Virus record (IMG/VR): IMGVR_UViG_3300023215_000956 | Span: 1-29,151 of that record | Direction: 5' to 3' (one strand) | DNA: 29,151 nucleotides | DNA from: a virus | Part shown: positions 6,853 through 27,895 of the stretch, piece after piece | Numbering within the stretch: position 1 is the stretch's first letter | Layout: each line of letters opens with the position of its first letter | Notes under the pieces: model-generated | What the model saw: the letters and a program-made list of their open reading frames with translations, nothing else | What the model was told of the DNA's origin: nothing | Database searches by the model: none | Translations under genes and position numbers: made by a program

Positions 6853-7040
6853 TGAATAACCCTTACTGCAAGCATGGAACTCACCACGCAATTCGCTGCT
6901 TTTCCTGCGAGATAGAGAGAAGGCAAGAGAAAAAAGCTTTGATGTCGTCCATCGAAGAGGCTGAGACAATAGAAGAGGCTGATGCGCGCAAAGCGGCATT
7001 GAGGAAAATAAAAGAAGCAGCTAAGAGGTTGGATTGGTGA
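6852..7040 (+). CDS. Small putative zinc-binding protein
   Basis: Start ATG 6852 overlaps the previous stop (TGATG). The first 20 residues carry C6, H8 and a CFSC pair (C16/C19) in 'PYCKHGTHHAIRCFSCE', a compact treble-clef or zinc-ribbon-like arrangement; the rest is a charged helix. Such 60-residue zinc-finger ORFs are common in phage nin regions. It overlaps the integrase start as GTGA. Function unknown. Confidence 0.6.
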   Translation: MNNPYCKHGTHHAIRCFSCEIERRQEKKALMSSIEEAETIEEADARKAALRKIKEAAKRLDW

Positions 7041-8260
7041 AGTCTATTGCTACCCAGATTAACGACACATCAATTAAGGCTCACGCTAAAGATAGTGAGA
7101 TAGGGGAGCTGCGCGATATCAGAAGTCCTGTCTCACTTAAATTCCACAAGAGCAGAGAAAAGGCCACGTGGTGTTATCTTCACTATGTTGGCGGTGTTAC
7201 TAAGCGAACCCGTATTGGTTATTGGCCCACGCTAAAAACAAAAGAAGCAGTAGCGCTTATCCCTACAGTTATTGAAAGCATTCATAAAGGTAAGGAAATA
7301 CAGAGTACCAGCTTCAAAACCGTTGGTGATTTGCTTAACTGGTATGCTGCCAGAACAGAGAAAGAGGCGTTAAAGAGTAAAAGCCGCCGCAAGAGTGTGT
7401 TAAGCGCAATAAACAGGCATCTATTCCCAATGTTAGAGAACGTAAGCATTACTGCAGTTCGCAAAGTGGTTATCGATGAACAGTTAATTCTGCCACTTCA
7501 AAATCAGAGCCTGAAACCATCAACCATTCGTCAGCACTTCGCCGTTCTCAAGCGAGCGTTCGCCAGCGCAAAAGAATTAGAACTTATATCGGTTAACCCA
7601 ATGGCGGGTATGAAGTTTCGTGATCACGTTCAGCGAAGAATAGAGCCAAAGCAAGGTAAGCTGCTAGTTGAGGACGCAAAGGGCGTAGTAGAGCAGTTAT
7701 CGGTGCTACCAGAGAGCACCAAGGCAATGCTGTTATTCATGTTGATGTTTGCTACTCGCATTGGTGAGACGCGCCAACTTAAATGGCGGTATATCGATTT
7801 GCACAGCGGTGTAATAACCCTGCCTGAGTTGGTAACTAAAACGGGAGCAGTTCACACGCTACCAATCACCAAACATGCTCACCAACTACTGTCAGATTAT
7901 AAGCAGCGCTGCAAGGGTGAATACCTGTTCGGTGGCAAATCACCAATAAGCCCCAGTACAGCAGACCAATTAGTAAGAACCGCATCAAAGCGTAAGTGGT
8001 CAGCCCATGACTTAAGAAAGTTGGCTCGCAGTGTATGGGCAACCATTGGTATCGATTACTGGGTAGCAGAACGCTTGCTTAACCATAAGCAAAAAGGCTT
8101 GGATTTGGTTTACATCAAAGCCGACTCGATAACGGTGAAACGTGAAGCATTAACCCAGTATCACGAATGGCTTTTTAATGGTGAATTTACATGTTGCCAA
8201 GGTGTTTTGGAAAATTCGCAGAATCACGAATTAACCAATAATTACAATAATGTAGCGTGA
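7037..8260 (+). CDS. int: Tyrosine recombinase / phage integrase
   Basis: A site-specific recombinase that would integrate and excise phage DNA at att sites. Start chosen as GTG 7037 (GTGA overlap), giving 407 residues. The N-terminal 75 residues resemble the arm-type DNA-binding domain of P4-like integrases ('KATWCYLHYVGGVTKRTRIGYWPT'); about residues 95-190 form the core-binding SAM-like domain. Catalytic residues visible: R241 (ATRIGETRQLKW), H324 and R327 (HDLRK), H350 (LLNHKQKG) and Y359 (VYIKAD). About 30 unusual residues follow the core ('FTCCQGVLENS...'). It sits inside the early operon, transcribed with replication genes, which is atypical. No clear attP was found. Confidence 0.92.
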   Translation: MKSIATQINDTSIKAHAKDSEIGELRDIRSPVSLKFHKSREKATWCYLHYVGGVTKRTRIGYWPTLKTKEAVALIPTVIESIHKGKEIQSTSFKTVGDLLNWYAARTEKEALKSKSRRKSVLSAINRHLFPMLENVSITAVRKVVIDEQLILPLQNQSLKPSTIRQHFAVLKRAFASAKELELISVNPMAGMKFRDHVQRRIEPKQGKLLVEDAKGVVEQLSVLPESTKAMLLFMLMFATRIGETRQLKWRYIDLHSGVITLPELVTKTGAVHTLPITKHAHQLLSDYKQRCKGEYLFGGKSPISPSTADQLVRTASKRKWSAHDLRKLARSVWATIGIDYWVAERLLNHKQKGLDLVYIKADSITVKREALTQYHEWLFNGEFTCCQGVLENSQNHELTNNYNNVA

Positions 8261-9035: not shown

Positions 9036-9323
9036 ATGACTACCGCGATGATCATCTTCATATCTCAGTTTGCCGTTGTCTATCTTCTGGGTATCCAAAG
9101 TTTAATGGTTCGCGATGCGAATTGTGTGGGCGCTGCAGCTGGTGCAATCTTCATTGCTATTAGCCAGTTTTGCGTATTTTCTATTATCGGAAGTTTTGCA
9201 GCCAGTGACCTATTAACACTGAATGGGTTGGCATTTCTGTGCGCGGGGCCAGTCGCCATAGTTGCATCAATTAAAACTCACCCGTACATGGTAAAACACG
9301 TTTTCAAGGGGCGTAAACAATGA
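9036..9323 (+). CDS. Small integral membrane protein, three predicted helices
   Basis: The 95-residue protein begins directly after the rusA stop. Hydrophobic segments lie at about residues 5-24, 30-52 and 60-80, with a basic C-terminus (HVFKGRKQ) probably in the cytoplasm. It is part of the early operon and overlaps the next gene by ATGA. Membrane location is clear from composition; the role is not. It is not placed with lysis genes, so holin activity is unlikely. Confidence 0.6.
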   Translation: MTTAMIIFISQFAVVYLLGIQSLMVRDANCVGAAAGAIFIAISQFCVFSIIGSFAASDLLTLNGLAFLCAGPVAIVASIKTHPYMVKHVFKGRKQ

Positions 9324-9844
9324 TCATAGGTTTAACAGGTAAAGCGAGAAGCGGTAAAGATACGGTTGCTGAGCATTTGGCAATAGCTCATGGGTTTCAT
9401 CACTACTGGTTTAGTAAACCGATGAAAGAAGCGTGTCGCAGTATGTTCGGCTGGAATGATGCACATTTATATGGTGACTTGAAAGAAGTGGTAGACCCAC
9501 GGTTTGGTGTTTCACCCCGCGTAGCACTGCAAACGCTAGGAACGGAGTGGGGGCGTAACACTATCAATTCAGATTTATGGATATTGCGAGCCCAAAAAGA
9601 AATGGAGCAGCATGATTGTATTGTGATAAGCGATTGCCGTTTTGACAATGAGGTCGAGGCAGTTTTGGACGCTGGAGGCATTGTTATTGAAGTGTCGCGC
9701 AATGGTATTAATGAGGTGGCCGCGCATTCATCAGAAAGCGGTATTAGTGCCAACCTTATAACTTTCCGAATTGATAACAACGGCACATTACAAGGACTGT
9801 ATAAATCGGTAGATGAATTACTTATTCAAGCGTTAGCAGCGTAA
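9320..9844 (+). CDS. Deoxynucleoside monophosphate kinase-like protein
   Basis: A P-loop kinase of 174 residues, similar in plan to T4 gp1-type dNMP kinases and dephospho-CoA-kinase-like proteins. The N-terminus 'MIIGLTGKARSGKDTVAEHL' contains the Walker A loop at residues 7-15. 'TLGTEWGRN' and 'DCRFDNEVEAVLDAGG' are typical of the phage dNMP kinase family, where the latter region contacts nucleotide. It would convert dNMPs to dNDPs to feed phage DNA synthesis. It overlaps the upstream membrane protein gene and precedes the last early gene by 13 bases. Confidence 0.85.
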   Translation: MIIGLTGKARSGKDTVAEHLAIAHGFHHYWFSKPMKEACRSMFGWNDAHLYGDLKEVVDPRFGVSPRVALQTLGTEWGRNTINSDLWILRAQKEMEQHDCIVISDCRFDNEVEAVLDAGGIVIEVSRNGINEVAAHSSESGISANLITFRIDNNGTLQGLYKSVDELLIQALAA

Positions 9845-9857
9845 GGGGGTAACTTAT

Positions 9858-10376
9858 ATGTCAAATCCAATAAGAGAATTAGCAAGAATGACAACAAAAT
9901 CAAAGCAAATTGACGGTATGCCGTTTGGTGGTATTGCTCCCGATGCAAATGTGGTTGCTGGGGCGCTAGCAATGAGAAACCCAGTAACGGGATTAAAGTT
10001 GGAACGCCCGGCTTATTACCTCGCCAGATTGCTTTACGCTGATGATAAAAGTTCTCGTGTACATGTTAAAGCTGGCGTAAGTGCGATAATGATTAAATCC
10101 AGCATTGATATTGCCGATATTTCTTTAGCCAAGTTGATCAATTGCGCCATCAGTGAAATCCAATCTCCAATACTGCGCTTAAATAGGAAAACAGGCCAGC
10201 AAGAAATAAAACCTGTAAGCAAGCGCGAGATATGCCGCCGATTGGATATTAACGGCGCTAAATTGCCTACTAAAATAGAAGAGGCCTATAACGCCATTCT
10301 GAAACAATTGTTCACTTGGAACGAAATGGCATTAAGGCATGTTTATTATTCAATGAGAGAGGATGAAGCGGCATAA
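9858..10376 (+). CDS. Last early gene, candidate late-gene antiterminator (Q position)
   Basis: A 172-residue protein with a strong AAGGGGGT ribosome-binding site. I do not recognise a Q family by sequence. Residues about 120-160 ('SKREICRRLDINGAKLPTKI') could form a helix-turn-helix. Position is the argument: it is the last gene of the early operon, and 34 bases after its stop lies a strong promoter followed at once by a terminator, the lambda Q/pR'/tR' layout. A Q-type protein would load on polymerase at that promoter and let it pass the terminator into lysis and head genes. A transcription activator is the alternative. Confidence 0.5.
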   Translation: MSNPIRELARMTTKSKQIDGMPFGGIAPDANVVAGALAMRNPVTGLKLERPAYYLARLLYADDKSSRVHVKAGVSAIMIKSSIDIADISLAKLINCAISEIQSPILRLNRKTGQQEIKPVSKREICRRLDINGAKLPTKIEEAYNAILKQLFTWNEMALRHVYYSMREDEAA

Positions 10377-10409
10377 CAAAAAAAACTGTATTTATATACA
10401 ATATTATTG

Positions 10410-10438
10410 TTGACATGTTTCCGCGTTTTGCATAGGAT
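10410..10438 (+). promoter_or_regulatory. Late promoter, pR'-like
   Basis: A consensus -35 TTGACA at 10410-10415 and TAGGAT at 10433-10438 are separated by exactly 17 bases, a strong sigma70-type pair, with transcription expected to start near 10446. AT-rich sequence lies upstream (10381-10409). It points toward the lysis and morphogenesis genes. Confidence 0.75.
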
Positions 10439-10467
10439 ATTTCCCATCCTAGCGATATTTCACTTGA

Positions 10468-10498
10468 AGCCCTGACCTAACCAGTCGGGGCTTTTTTT
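10468..10498 (+). terminator. Terminator just after the late promoter, tR'-like
   Basis: AGCCCTGAC (10468-10476) pairs with GTCGGGGCT (10484-10492), nine pairs with one G-U, followed by T residues to 10498. Without antitermination the promoter at 10410 would make only a roughly 50-nt RNA. Confidence 0.85.
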
Positions 10499-10511: not shown

Positions 10512-10940
10512 ATGTTCCCCTACGGCAAAACTTCACAAGCGCGTCTTGATACGTGCCATGTTGACATTCAAACGATATTCAACGAAGTGAAGAAGGTTAT
10601 TAATGCGTCTATCTTTTGCGGTCACCGTGGTAAAGAAGACCAGAACCAAGCCTTTGCTAATGGACTCAGTCAATTAAAGTGGCCTCACTCCAAGCACAAC
10701 ACACTCCCATCTATGGCAATTGATGCTGGGCTTTACTTTGTAGAATTAGGCAACACAGACTGGAAGGACGAACTGGCATTTGCTGTATTCGCTGGCCATG
10801 TCATGTGTATTGCTCGCCAGTTGTACGCCGAAAAGAAAATAACTCACTTATTACGCTGGGGTGGTGACTGGGATATGGACGGTAGAAGCCGTGATGAACG
10901 TTTCCGCGACTTGCCACACTTTGAATTGTATAAGCCATAG
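10512..10940 (+). CDS. Endolysin, M15 (VanY-type) peptidase
   Basis: A 142-residue single-domain peptidoglycan peptidase resembling the T5-type L-alanyl-D-glutamate peptidase group. Zinc-ligand pattern visible: H62 and D71 in 'HSKHNTLPSMAIDAG', and H136 in 'DLPHFEL' near the C-terminus. No signal peptide, so it needs a holin for export. The ribosome-binding site is weak (no clear GGAG before ATG 10512), which may limit its level. First gene of the late operon, directly after the pR'-tR' pair. Confidence 0.85.
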   Translation: MFPYGKTSQARLDTCHVDIQTIFNEVKKVINASIFCGHRGKEDQNQAFANGLSQLKWPHSKHNTLPSMAIDAGLYFVELGNTDWKDELAFAVFAGHVMCIARQLYAEKKITHLLRWGGDWDMDGRSRDERFRDLPHFELYKP

Positions 10941-11765: not shown

Positions 11766-12035
11766 ATGAACACTCACTACCAACACGAATACAATCAATC
11801 AATGTCCGATAAATCATCTATAGCTACATACATTGGGGGCGGTATCTCAGCATTTTGGGGATTTCTCGCCTCACAGGAGTTCGGCATAGTATTTGGCGTA
11901 CTGGTGAGTGCCGTAGGATTATCCATGAATTATTATTTCAAACGGCGTGAAGACAAACGCCAGCAGGCAGAGGAACGCAGGAAGCGAGAGCTTCACGATG
12001 TAACTTTGAGGGCAATGGTTAACAACGAGGATTAA
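11766..12035 (+). CDS. HP1-type phage holin, 89 residues
   Basis: The pattern 'SSIATYIGGGISAFWGFLAS', then a second hydrophobic helix (GIVFGVLVSAVGLSMNYYF) and a highly charged tail (KRREDKRQQAEERRKRE) is that of HP1-family holins. Two helices span the inner membrane. A second in-frame ATG at 11802 (residue 13) would give the usual short N-terminus, so a two-start system as in lambda S is conceivable; neither start has a strong ribosome-binding site (GGGCAG before 11766). I found no Rz/Rz1 spanin pair. Confidence 0.7.
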   Translation: MNTHYQHEYNQSMSDKSSIATYIGGGISAFWGFLASQEFGIVFGVLVSAVGLSMNYYFKRREDKRQQAEERRKRELHDVTLRAMVNNED

Positions 12036-20072: not shown

Positions 20073-20363
20073 ATGGACGAGATAGATCGCTTACTTAACG
20101 ATGCCTGCAGCGATGTAATTGAGCATCTAGGAAATACTGTTTTCGTTGATGGTGTAAAACTAAAATGCACCATCGAGGATGAGCAGTTTGAAGATGAAAG
20201 CGGCTATCGACGTGAAGTTTTGCTCAGCTTCAATAAAAATGACGCACCCTTGCTTAAAAAGGGTGCGTCCGTTGTTTGCAGAGGCCAAAATTTTGTTATT
20301 GGTCGAATCCCGAGAGAAGACTTTGACGATCCTTTTTACACAGTGGAACTAAAGCGTGCATAA
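20073..20363 (+). CDS. Head-tail connector, gpFII-like
   Basis: A 96-residue beta-rich protein (lambda FII 117). The pattern 'NTVFVDGVKLKCTIEDEQF', then 'LLKKGASVVCRGQNFVIGR' and the ending 'DDPFYTVELKRA' resembles the head-tail attachment family, which adds a ring below gpW to receive the tail. Located between the FI-like and tail-terminator genes as in lambda. Confidence 0.65.
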   Translation: MDEIDRLLNDACSDVIEHLGNTVFVDGVKLKCTIEDEQFEDESGYRREVLLSFNKNDAPLLKKGASVVCRGQNFVIGRIPREDFDDPFYTVELKRA

Positions 20364-20787: not shown

Positions 20788-20807
20788 CTAACACTCAACT
20801 TATTCTA

Positions 20808-20835
20808 AGCCCCGCTAATTAGCGGGGTTTTTTTA
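20808..20835 (+). terminator. Intrinsic terminator between head and tail-tube genes
   Basis: The palindrome CCCCGCTAATTAGCGGGG (20810-20827) is followed by seven T residues. In an antiterminated late transcript it may still reduce or time tail-gene expression. Confidence 0.85.
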
Positions 20836-20855: not shown

Positions 20856-21263
20856 ATGGCTGGTGAATTAAACGGCACTCAGGTATTAATCAAACGCGGT
20901 ACATCTACCATTGTGGGCCAGATGGAATGCACCTTAACTTTCAACGGCACACCCGTTGATATTAGCAATAAGTCACACCAAGACTGGGTGGTATTGCTGT
21001 CTGGTGAACTAGCAGGTAAGCAGTTACAAGTTGCAGGTACTTTAGTTTACAACAGCGATGCTTCTTATAAGCAAGTCCGCGCTGATGCGATAACCGGCAC
21101 GCAGGCCGATTACTCTATTGTTTACGGTGATACGGGTGAAGCGTTCTCGTGCAAAATGGTGCCTAATGGTCTTTCTGATGCATTGCCTATGGGTGATAAA
21201 GTCACTACTTCGATTACGTTCCTTTCCAGTGGTGAAGTACAACATACGGCGGCATCAGCATAA
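20856..21263 (+). CDS. Tail tube protein, copy 1
   Basis: A 135-residue protein with AAAGGGGAA before the ATG. The pattern 'GELAGKQLQVAGTLVYNSDA', then 'YKQVRADAITGTQADYSIVY' and 'LSDALPMGDKVTTSITFLSSG' is that of small siphophage major tail proteins, which stack as hexamer rings. It is shorter than lambda gpV because it lacks an extra Ig-like domain. Two further paralogues lie at 21263 and 27416. It follows a terminator, so its expression level may be set separately. Confidence 0.8.
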   Translation: MAGELNGTQVLIKRGTSTIVGQMECTLTFNGTPVDISNKSHQDWVVLLSGELAGKQLQVAGTLVYNSDASYKQVRADAITGTQADYSIVYGDTGEAFSCKMVPNGLSDALPMGDKVTTSITFLSSGEVQHTAASA

Positions 21264-21670
21264 TGAGCAATGAAGCAAACGGTACCCGCTGCTTGCTTTA
21301 CCGCTTCACTGGCACCGAAGACGCGGTAATAGTTGGTCAGTTGGAACTGACATCAACATTTAATGGTACACCCATCGAAATTACTAGTAAGTCACACAAT
21401 GACTTTGTAACGCTGATGGATGCCAACTTGTCAACAAAAGGCCGCACAATTACCGCCAATATTGTTTACAGCAATGACGCCGAATACAAGTTGCTTCGTG
21501 CTAATAGCCTGGCGGGCAACATTGACGAGTACATGCTGGATTATGGTACTGGCTTAGTTGCAGATCAGATTCGCTTTAATGGTATTCCTAATGCGCCATC
21601 TGATACAGCCCCCGTTGGTGACAAGGTAACAAGCTCTATCTCTATTCTATCAGTGGGCGAGGATATCTGA
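21263..21670 (+). CDS. Tail tube protein, copy 2
   Basis: Another 135-residue protein of the same family as its neighbour: shared positions include 'IVGQLE', 'FNGTPIEI..KSH', 'VYSNDAEYKLLRA' and the C-terminal 'APVGDKVTSSISILSVGE'. Identity by eye is clearly above chance but far from complete, so this is an old duplication. The start overlaps the stop of copy 1 (TAATG). Either the two alternate or mix in the tube, or one is a decorated or specialised ring. Confidence 0.8.
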   Translation: MSNEANGTRCLLYRFTGTEDAVIVGQLELTSTFNGTPIEITSKSHNDFVTLMDANLSTKGRTITANIVYSNDAEYKLLRANSLAGNIDEYMLDYGTGLVADQIRFNGIPNAPSDTAPVGDKVTSSISILSVGEDI

Positions 21671-25128: not shown

Positions 25129-27419
25129 GCCTATTTCACTATTACGTTATCGAGCTTGATTTACCCGAAGTTACGAGCGCATGCACAAAGAATGGTAATG
25201 CTGGCTTTGGTACTCCGCTGACATGTACCGATCAAAGTAATCACACAATCATCACCAAAACCCACAAGTACACAGACACATCATTAATTTTGTCTGAATC
25301 CGATGTATATAAGTGCGTGAATAAGGTGAGCGAAACCACCCCTGCGCTTAAGTCGGGTAATGGTGTGGCTAGTACAGCAACGTGCACCATTAGTATGCGT
25401 GATTTTATAGGCGATCCGAACCTATCAAGCCCTGCTTTAATTTCAAACCCTAACATCAAAGAACAGGGTTCATACTTCGGTAAATTAAAAGCCCGAAATG
25501 TACTAACAAATAAACCTATCCGCGTGCTGTATTACGAAAGTGACGGGTACACATCCACACTTAAGCGAACCCATCACTATCTGCTTGTTGATGTAAAGCA
25601 AAGCAGCGCTGACATGTGGACATTCACATGCAAGGATGTGCTGTATAAGGCAGATGATGAAAACAGCGATTTTCCTAAAATAGTCACAGGCACGCTGCAA
25701 AGTGATATTACCGTTGGCGAAACCAGCATTTCAATGGATGCTGACATTGCAGACTGGACCCCATACTCAGATTTTACGGCCGTTGTAGGTGGCGATTTGA
25801 TGATGATCACAAACGCCAGCGGAAACTCTTCATCAGTTACACTCACTGTGGTTCGAGCAAATACAATCACCCTTGGTTCGAGAACTATTCTAAACGAACC
25901 TACTGAACATTCAGCGGGTGACGAGGTATTCCGAGGAAGGAAGTTTGTCAACGCGGATCCGTATGATTTGTTGGTTAAAGTGTTTGAAGACGCAGACTTA
26001 ACCAGCGATAACTACAACGCCACGGTTGTACAAGCTGAATTGGATGAATGGTTGCCCAATCTAAAAGGCTCGATTGATACCATTATTTACGAACACAATG
26101 ACACAACCACGTTCCTAGATGACTTCTGCGCAACGTTAATGCTGGACATGTGGACAGATTTGACCACGGGTAAAATAGTAATAAAAGCAACCAGCCCATG
26201 GAATACAACGTCTGCCATTTTACGCGAAGGTATTGAAATTAATTACGGGTCCATCAGCATTGATGAAGACGCCGAACTCTATTACTCACGCGCATTTTTG
26301 CAATACGACAAAAGAAAAATCACTGAAAGTGACGATGATGCCAACTTCGCCCGCTCTAGTTTAGCGTATGACACAACCCTTGAGGGTGAGTTGTATTACA
26401 ACGCAGAGAAAGTTAAAGATCTGGGTAAATCAATCATACTTTCCAACAAACTCAGCAATATTGAAACCGCTGATTTAACCACCGTTCGCTATGCCCAGCG
26501 TTTCAGTAATCGCCCACAAAAAATTATTGGCACTGTTGAAGAAGCAAACCTTAATTTTTCGCTGGGGGATGTTGTAGAAATTAATACAGCCTCGAATCAG
26601 GATTTTTACGGCAACCCAGTCACAGGATTGCGATCTCAAATCATAAAGATAGCGCCAACGTCTAGCACTGGCCGCAGCTATAAAATTACAGCCGTAACGT
26701 ACAACCCTTACATCGGCGCGTTCGCTGGCTCAGATTTAATAGTAAACGCTGAATATGACAATAATTTATACACGATAGCCGGCGGCCCCGTTACTGCAGA
26801 CACCTTCACATTTATTTTTTCAAAGCCAGTTTACGGCCAAAACACCTTCAATCAAGCCATTTCAGTGGGCTCATTCCCGTCTGGCTCAATTGTTAACCTG
26901 GTATTTATTGATGGCTCAATATCAATAGGGCGAGGCGGCAATGGTGGCTCTACAGGTGCAGGTGAAAACGGCGGCACAACACTATTGGGTACTAGCGGTG
27001 TAACTGTAAATATCTATCTGGGTGGCACTACTCCAGATTTTGGTAATGGCTCATACACCGCCGATGGCTATTTAAAAGCCCCAGGTGGCGGTGGTGGTGC
27101 AGCACCCGAAGAGTACGAGCCTAAATACAGTGTCATTCATCATGGTGGCGGTGGCGGCTCCGGTAGCAAGCCAGGCACAGGCGGGCAGGGATATGCTGGG
27201 GTCGAAGGGCAGGACGGTTCAGCAAGTTCAGGAGGCGAAGCTTTCGATTTAGCTGGCGCTGGCGGAGGCCCCGGCCAACCGGGAGAGGCGGGCGCTTATG
27301 CCGGTGGTTTAGCTGGCAAGGCGCTGGAGGCCAATGGCAGCACGATCAACGTTTATACCGATGGTGATTTATCGCGATACATCCAGGGTGAGGGTGATAC
27401 CCCTAATTCTATATCATGA
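25125..27419 (+). CDS. Tail tip/hub protein with C-terminal glycine-rich domain
   Basis: A 764-residue protein in the position of lambda J. Residues about 1-560 are beta-rich and resemble tip or hub proteins ('NADPYDLLVKVFEDADLT', 'TFLDDFCATLMLDMWTDL', 'LNFSLGDVVEINTAS'). From about residue 600 the sequence becomes glycine-rich, with 'GRGGNGG', 'APGGGGGAAPE', 'HHGGGGGSGSKPGTGG' and 'AGAGGGPGQPGEAG' blocks, as in phage adhesins with stacked polyglycine helices. This part is a good candidate for receptor contact. The start overlaps the previous stop. Confidence 0.75.
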   Translation: MSLFHYYVIELDLPEVTSACTKNGNAGFGTPLTCTDQSNHTIITKTHKYTDTSLILSESDVYKCVNKVSETTPALKSGNGVASTATCTISMRDFIGDPNLSSPALISNPNIKEQGSYFGKLKARNVLTNKPIRVLYYESDGYTSTLKRTHHYLLVDVKQSSADMWTFTCKDVLYKADDENSDFPKIVTGTLQSDITVGETSISMDADIADWTPYSDFTAVVGGDLMMITNASGNSSSVTLTVVRANTITLGSRTILNEPTEHSAGDEVFRGRKFVNADPYDLLVKVFEDADLTSDNYNATVVQAELDEWLPNLKGSIDTIIYEHNDTTTFLDDFCATLMLDMWTDLTTGKIVIKATSPWNTTSAILREGIEINYGSISIDEDAELYYSRAFLQYDKRKITESDDDANFARSSLAYDTTLEGELYYNAEKVKDLGKSIILSNKLSNIETADLTTVRYAQRFSNRPQKIIGTVEEANLNFSLGDVVEINTASNQDFYGNPVTGLRSQIIKIAPTSSTGRSYKITAVTYNPYIGAFAGSDLIVNAEYDNNLYTIAGGPVTADTFTFIFSKPVYGQNTFNQAISVGSFPSGSIVNLVFIDGSISIGRGGNGGSTGAGENGGTTLLGTSGVTVNIYLGGTTPDFGNGSYTADGYLKAPGGGGGAAPEEYEPKYSVIHHGGGGGSGSKPGTGGQGYAGVEGQDGSASSGGEAFDLAGAGGGPGQPGEAGAYAGGLAGKALEANGSTINVYTDGDLSRYIQGEGDTPNSIS

Positions 27420-27895
27420 TTGAAACGTTAATTGGTGAACTGTATTTCGATGTTGAGTTATATGACAGCATTGAGCTGGCAACCCGAATTCGTATTGGTG
27501 AGCATTACAACGGTTCAAAATGCATCATCTGGAAAGATGGCAATGTTCTGATTGGTCAGCTAGAAGCTTCGATAGCATTTCAGGGTTCTTTGGTACAACT
27601 CAATAACGCTTCAACCACGCCTTATATATCTTACTTAAATAACGAATTGGTAGGCAGGCAATTAGTTGTTTCTGGTTCAATTATTTACACCAACCAGGCC
27701 GCTTATCATGCAATGCGCGCTGATGCCATGAGCGGGCGTAAATCGAACTACAGAGTCGAGTACGCTGATGGAGAGGAATTCACCGCCTCATTTACACCGT
27801 CAAATTTATCCGATTCATTCCCTCGCGGCAATGCCGCCAAGAGTTCGTTTTCGCTGCGGTCCAGTGGCGCCGTAACCAGAATTACAGTTGAGTAG
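27416..27895 (+). CDS. Third tail-tube-like paralogue, after the tip protein
   Basis: A 159-residue protein overlapping the tip gene (ATGA). After about 32 unique residues ('MIETLIGELYFDVELYDSIE...'), the rest aligns with the tube copies: 'LIGQLEASIAFQGSLVQL', 'NELVGRQLVVSGSIIYTNQA', 'HAMRADAMSGRKSNYRVEY' and 'LSDSFPRGNAAKSSF'. It keeps the RADA and LSD...P.G motifs. A tube-fold copy this far down in the tip cluster is unusual; it may form the ring that joins tube to tip, or a fibre adaptor. Function is inferred. Confidence 0.75.
   Translation: MIETLIGELYFDVELYDSIELATRIRIGEHYNGSKCIIWKDGNVLIGQLEASIAFQGSLVQLNNASTTPYISYLNNELVGRQLVVSGSIIYTNQAAYHAMRADAMSGRKSNYRVEYADGEEFTASFTPSNLSDSFPRGNAAKSSFSLRSSGAVTRITVE

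Follow-up and report, generated by a model that had tools for sequence, protein, structure and literature searches.

A conserved Q-position gene and its promoter-terminator element in a phage group probably hosted by Alteromonas: a likely Q-like antiterminator with a predicted lambda Q-like fold

Q proteins fall into three sequence families, those of phages 21, lambda and 82, which show no detectable similarity to one another (PMC7171158, PMC9371919), and AlpA stands besides them. The known Q and AlpA systems comprise a binding site located between the -35 and -10 hexamers, a -10-like sequence and a terminator. A stretch of ~60 residues at the N-terminus of lambda Q lacks structure (PMC7171158). 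In the AlpA-controlled promoter, the functional -10-like sequence is CACGAT, at -1 to +5, and the fold of AlpA has been reported to be Q21-like (PMC9371919).

The locus described here lies in a window of 29,151 nucleotides, i.e., the whole stretch that was analysed, from the IMG/VR virus record IMGVR_UViG_3300023215_000956. The window is laid out with early genes at the left, followed by a nin-like block and by late genes at the right (Table 1), and the endolysin-like, holin and structural genes that follow the first terminator are all on the same strand. The gene of interest, hereafter Q172, is located between a dNMP kinase gene, whose slot is taken in relatives by RusA-like, nuclease-like or NinG-like genes, and the lysis genes; this conserved placement is the position expected of a Q gene. 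A tyrosine recombinase (integrase-like, 7034-8260) sits inside the early/nin-like block and not at the end of a prophage, and is found at the same place in Alteromonas phage P24 and relatives; an in-frame tandem duplication occurs within a protein encoded at 397-834 (GDLLVNATGDLLVNATG).

Table 1. Coordinates of the features discussed; positions refer to the window unless contigs are named
Feature	Position	Strand	Remarks
Deoxynucleoside monophosphate kinase (dNMP kinase) gene	9320..9844	+	directly upstream of Q172
Q172 gene	9858..10376	+	ATG ORF, 172 aa; predicted Q-like antiterminator
-35 hexamer TTGACA, pR'-like late promoter	10410..10415	+	5/6 positions invariant in relatives
CGCGTTTTGC in spacer, candidate Q172 binding element	10422..10431	+	consensus CGaGcTTTGC; proposed from conservation alone
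-10 hexamer TAGGAT	10433..10438	+	TAATAT in most relatives
Putative -10-like pause hexamer CATCCT	10445..10450	+	CATACT in relatives; about -1 to +5
Intrinsic terminator, tR'-like	10466..10498	+	11-bp stem and T-run; 28/30 positions invariant
First late gene, endolysin-like	10512..10940	+	PHROG endolysin, 3.8e-23
Holin	11766..12035	+	
Second strong intrinsic terminator	20807..20830	+	10 pairs, T-run; between two late genes, inside late operon
Alternative late cassette	L081 5760-6486; also L083, L084, L087-L090		74-aa HTH_3 and 112-aa phrog_27007, promoter, terminator

Q172 is encoded by 25 further IMG/VR contigs, with 64-100% identity, as well as by the genome of Alteromonas sp. IB21, and every complete copy has exactly 172 residues. 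The gene is under purifying selection (dN/dS 0.06-0.13), and comparison of the window with its relatives shows synonymous sites near saturation (pS 0.66-0.82). Because IB21 gave the only true match among 397 family-level and 395 order-level genomes, the host group of these phages is probably Alteromonas; a tblastn search of 50,697 phage records returned no match. The preliminary description of the locus had pointed out that the 172-residue protein was not recognisable as any known Q, and profile searches against Pfam, PHROG, NCBIfam and PDB bear this out, with chance-level matches only and no family assignment. Homology to an unrelated protein, which that description had named as grounds for abandoning its proposal, was likewise absent from Pfam, PHROG and NCBIfam, the best Pfam trace being a sub-threshold match to a replication-initiator (E 0.15). 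Several Q172 members weakly match PHROG families 11372 and 9161, neither of which was found in the genomes searched, a search that gave no control signal.

Downstream of Q172, at a distance of 34 bp in the window, lies a promoter that matches the consensus at 10 of 12 hexamer positions with a 17-bp spacer (TTGACA-17-TAGGAT, 10410-10438). Its predicted start is A10446, and a terminator hairpin begins ~20 nt further on, so that the terminator occupies about +20 to +55 from the expected start. The stem (10466-10494) contains 11 pairs, six of them G-C, rather than the nine counted at first, closes a 7-nt loop and is followed by a T-run; the hairpin folds with -17.4 kcal/mol (z -4.4 versus shuffles). 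An element of this kind, ~95 bp in length, was found downstream of Q172 in 24 of the 24 records with enough DNA, namely 21 contigs found by pattern, contig 3300017756_003602, the window and IB21; these records are mutually related and mosaic and do not represent 24 independent events. The three contigs lacking the element stop early, one of them 630 bp past Q172 and two within Q172. In each of the 24 records, a late promoter and then an intrinsic terminator precede the first late gene. The pairing noticed in the preliminary description is therefore real, and its recurrence downstream of Q172 in all 24 records confirms, at the level of sequence, that the promoter-terminator pair goes beyond chance.

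The element takes the form GTTGACT-CACTGACGAGCTTTGCT-TAATAT-ATCCCCATACTAGCACTATTTCACTTGAAGCCCTGACCTAACCAGTCGGGGCTTTTTTT or a near variant, where hyphens mark the borders of the -35, spacer and -10. Among seven distinct copies, invariant positions amount to 0/5 in the upstream flank, 5/6 in the -35 hexamer, 2/7 in the left part of the spacer, 7/9 in its right part (CGxGxTTTGC core) and 28/30 in the terminator. Conservation thus marks the right half of the spacer and an A...T hexamer, CATACT or CATCCT, of which the second (A) and sixth (T) bases are conserved and which falls at about -1 to +5 on the presumption that transcription starts 7-8 nt after the -10. The window's own TAGGAT and CATCCT are the weakest -10 and -10-like hexamers in the family. 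Since sigma-70 should leave the sequence of the spacer free, its conserved right half is the best candidate for a Q172 binding site. Two pattern scans of viral contigs gave no terminator-bearing match on contigs without Q172, although the scans are not fully sensitive, as contig 3300017756_003602 carries the element yet went unlisted; the matches devoid of a terminator were either truncated copies of the element or chance-looking sites on contigs without Q172.

The gap between Q172 and the element ranges from 34 bp to ~1.6 kb and holds variable, unrelated small accessory genes, and the linkage between gene and element persists though the types of endolysin change. In L015 (4528-4560), and also in L016, L017 and L040, a truncated element that retains the -35 and the conserved spacer without the -10 stands right after Q172, followed by an accessory-gene cassette and then by the full element. 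This order suggests that the promoter boundary is where accessory genes insert. On another contig (L005 3528-4233, the same contig as L024), two opposite-strand genes that separate Q172 from the late promoter resemble, by eye, the HicA/HicB toxin-antitoxin system.

The AlphaFold2 model of Q172, built from 14 sequences, has a pLDDT of 76 and a pTM of 0.72. Residues 1-26 are of low confidence and predicted to be disordered; helices follow, with a short beta-hairpin at 106-117, and two further helices (122-128 and 138-171) make up a predicted HTH-like end (122-171). Residues 1-40 are among the most conserved, with a mean pairwise identity of 0.91 compared with 0.78 for the rest. The comparison with Q protein structures proposed at the outset placed lambda Q first: among solved structures, VIA-align ranked lambda Q 7ubn best (Z 9.5 over 135 residues, rmsd 4.4) and lambda Q 7ubm second (Z 9.2 over 118 residues, rmsd 3.7), and all others reached Z 3.3 at most. 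Foldseek searches of BFVD gave an 'Antitermination protein Q' and a 179-aa protein without a name, each with probability 1.00, the third match having a probability of 0.09; the same model gave nothing significant against the PDB with Foldseek. The likeness to the lambda Q fold is of moderate strength and relies on one predicted model.

Sequence comparisons gave a different picture. The PF03589 profile matched none of 14 Q172 members and was not found in 369 class-level genomes, and hhalign of Q172 against an eight-member lambda Q alignment scored 15.5, within the range of column-shuffled controls (95% below 17.9). The conserved cysteines of Q172 are C96 and C126 only, and the zinc-ribbon CxxC...CxxC motif, which is C118/C121/C144/C147 in lambda Q and its relatives, is absent. 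Membership in PF03589 was rejected on the profile and zinc-motif tests, and PF06530 and PF06323 were unmatched as well: the Q21 profile gave no Q172 match, the Q21 fold compared with the model at Z 3.3 or less and rmsd above 8, and Q82 gave no match in the Pfam scan, its genome-wide search yielding no control signal. AlpA was unlisted among the structural matches to the model, a result that would be compatible with some likeness to AlpA as well. Q172 is best described as a further sequence family with a predicted lambda Q-like fold. The suggestion that a new antiterminator family may be present is thus strengthened by the linkage, the cassette replacement described below, the predicted fold and an element that has a promoter, a conserved spacer site, a -10-like hexamer and an adjacent terminator, as a Q system would require; it stands as regards the sequence family, while the fold is probably not new and resembles that of lambda Q.

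An alternative arrangement at the same site is provided by Alteromonas phage P24, whose dNMP kinase gene shares 85% DNA identity with that of the window. Between dNMP kinase and lysozyme, P24 has, in place of Q172, genes for two proteins, an HTH protein of 74 aa and another protein of 112 aa, and a P24-like arrangement occurs in six IMG/VR contigs, with neither Q172 nor its element in the stretch read. In the promoter region of this type, CATAAT is preceded by a TG (extended -10), a good -35 is lacking, and repeats of CCAGATnTTG stand ~21 bp apart. In some P24-type contigs, the terminator is almost the same as the one next to Q172 (GAAGCCCTGACTTAATTAGTCGGGGC), or the endolysin is of the window's type, so the promoter goes with the regulator and not with the lysis genes. 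As these sequences read, promoter type moves with the regulator, and terminators and lysis genes are mixed freely. Such behaviour is what an antiterminator predicts, because it must recognise the promoter region and not the terminator. The 112-aa protein was modelled poorly (pLDDT 52); it has a WG-W motif near its start, somewhat like QuuD, and a relation to E. coli QuuD, considered from this N-terminal likeness by eye, was dropped as hhalign and a PF06530 search gave it no support. We tentatively suggest, at somewhat less than even confidence, that Alteromonas phages possess at least two unrecognised late-switch cassettes that swap at one site, one with a zinc-free lambda Q-like antiterminator and its own promoter code, the other with an HTH protein and its phrog_27007 partner, which would use an extended -10 promoter that has repeats upstream, while terminators and lysis genes would be exchangeable between the two.

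Q172 is Q-like in every feature of its action that sequence can reveal, and it is very probably the Q-position late regulator of the Alteromonas phage group, acting as a Q-like processive antiterminator. In the model that we favour, the strong sigma-70-type promoter would fire at about 10446 with or without Q172, and most transcripts would end ~50 nt on, at the terminator 10466-10498. Q172 would accumulate from the early operon, bind CGxGxTTTGC between the -35 and -10 hexamers, these bases being the putative contacts, and join RNA polymerase while the -10-like CATACT or CATCCT holds it in a sigma-dependent pause. It would then travel with the polymerase, allowing terminators 10466-10498 and 20807-20830 to be passed and, by read-through, the lysis, head and tail genes to be transcribed. 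Processive modification would be useful because the second strong terminator lies inside the late operon. This terminator is located upstream of repeated tail-type genes at 20856 and 21263, and its counterpart in L197 follows a homologous gene. Nearby, a perfect 11-bp inverted repeat (GACGCACCC...GGGTGCGTC) is found at 20241-20269, within the coding gene 20073-20363. By eye, the proteins 20856-21263, 21263-21670 and 27416-27895 resemble paralogues (LNGTQVLIKRG.../FNGTPV...), two of them being adjacent and one located at the far end of the tail genes.

Other readings have to be weighed against antitermination by Q172. Scans of the window alone find 8 promoters for 6.1 expected in shuffles and 3 terminators for 3.0 expected, no excess in either case, as would be the case if the promoter and the terminator were meaningless chance matches. 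The 31-nt pattern of the promoter part, built from several copies including the window's own, matches once in the window and never in 100 shuffles, and chance becomes hardly credible given that the element recurs downstream of Q172 in 24 records and keeps most positions invariant while synonymous sites of the gene are near saturation. Q172 could also be an activator that binds the spacer and raises initiation at the late promoter, the hairpin merely ending early transcription. This proposal would suit the HTH-like end predicted for the protein as well as the conserved site in the spacer. However, a near-consensus promoter with a 17-bp spacer should need no activator, so control is likely exerted at the terminator; a terminator that lies downstream of the start within the conserved element would stop activated transcripts too, and the predicted fold resembles lambda Q. 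We regard an activator role as improbable.

No more probable, in our view, is that Q172 plays no part in late control, serving for instance in replication or as an accessory protein, and that the element is a leader under RNA-based or host-factor-dependent attenuator control or some other control. The lack of sequence homology to Q and the sub-threshold replication-initiator trace would agree with this, but the linkage of gene and element is complete across exchangeable genes, the two are replaced jointly in sister phages, and the predicted fold is again that of lambda Q. For an attenuator, one would further have to accept a leader of only ~20 nt before the terminator and the absence of any Rfam match in the window. 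Altogether, the evidence is most consistent with Q172 as a Q-like antiterminator.

A family without the zinc ribbon, whether lost or never possessed, that keeps a lambda Q-like fold would reveal what lambda Q cannot do without, and would provide a structural link among Q proteins that look unrelated. Q172 and its element, together one protein of 172 aa and ~100 bp of DNA from a group of marine phages, would also form a compact natural system for testing, in which the P24-type cassette swap makes promoter specificity directly testable. It would, moreover, put a name to the late switch in phages of a common ocean bacterium.

Among known systems, lambda Q (PF03589; 7ubm, 7ubn) with pR'-tR' comes closest: as with Q172, its gene is the final one ahead of the lysis genes and adjoins a recombination/nin-like block, and the system has a promoter followed by a terminator, a disordered, conserved N-terminus and a fold that matches the one predicted for Q172. 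The two differ in that they share no detectable sequence homology, in length (172 aa versus 207 aa for lambda Q) and in the CxxC zinc pairs, which Q172 lacks; the Q172 terminator is ~20 nt past the start, whereas the lambda late terminator lies much further downstream, and the -10-like element, at about -1 to +5, is also unlike that of lambda. The Q of phage 21 (PF06530; 6jny, 6p18, 6p1b) resembles Q172 in proposed role and layout, with a promoter-internal binding site, a -10-like pause and a nearby terminator, yet there is no Pfam match, fold similarity is weak and the Q172 element has no obvious direct-repeat site. For the Q of phage 82 (PF06323), the likeness is one of proposed role only, with no Pfam match and no solved structure found for comparison. 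The P24-type cassette belongs to related Alteromonas phages and occupies the same slot, with a promoter-terminator directly downstream and the same types of lysis genes, but its proteins are unrelated to Q172 and its promoter is extended -10-like with upstream repeats. AlpA of Pseudomonas aeruginosa, compared by promoter layout alone, is host-encoded and induced by DNA damage, unlike Q172; as proposed for Q172, it has a single site between the -35 and -10, controls lysis genes and has its terminator close by, and the -10-like hexamers, CACGAT at -1 to +5 for AlpA and the putative CATACT at about -1 to +5 for Q172, agree in place.
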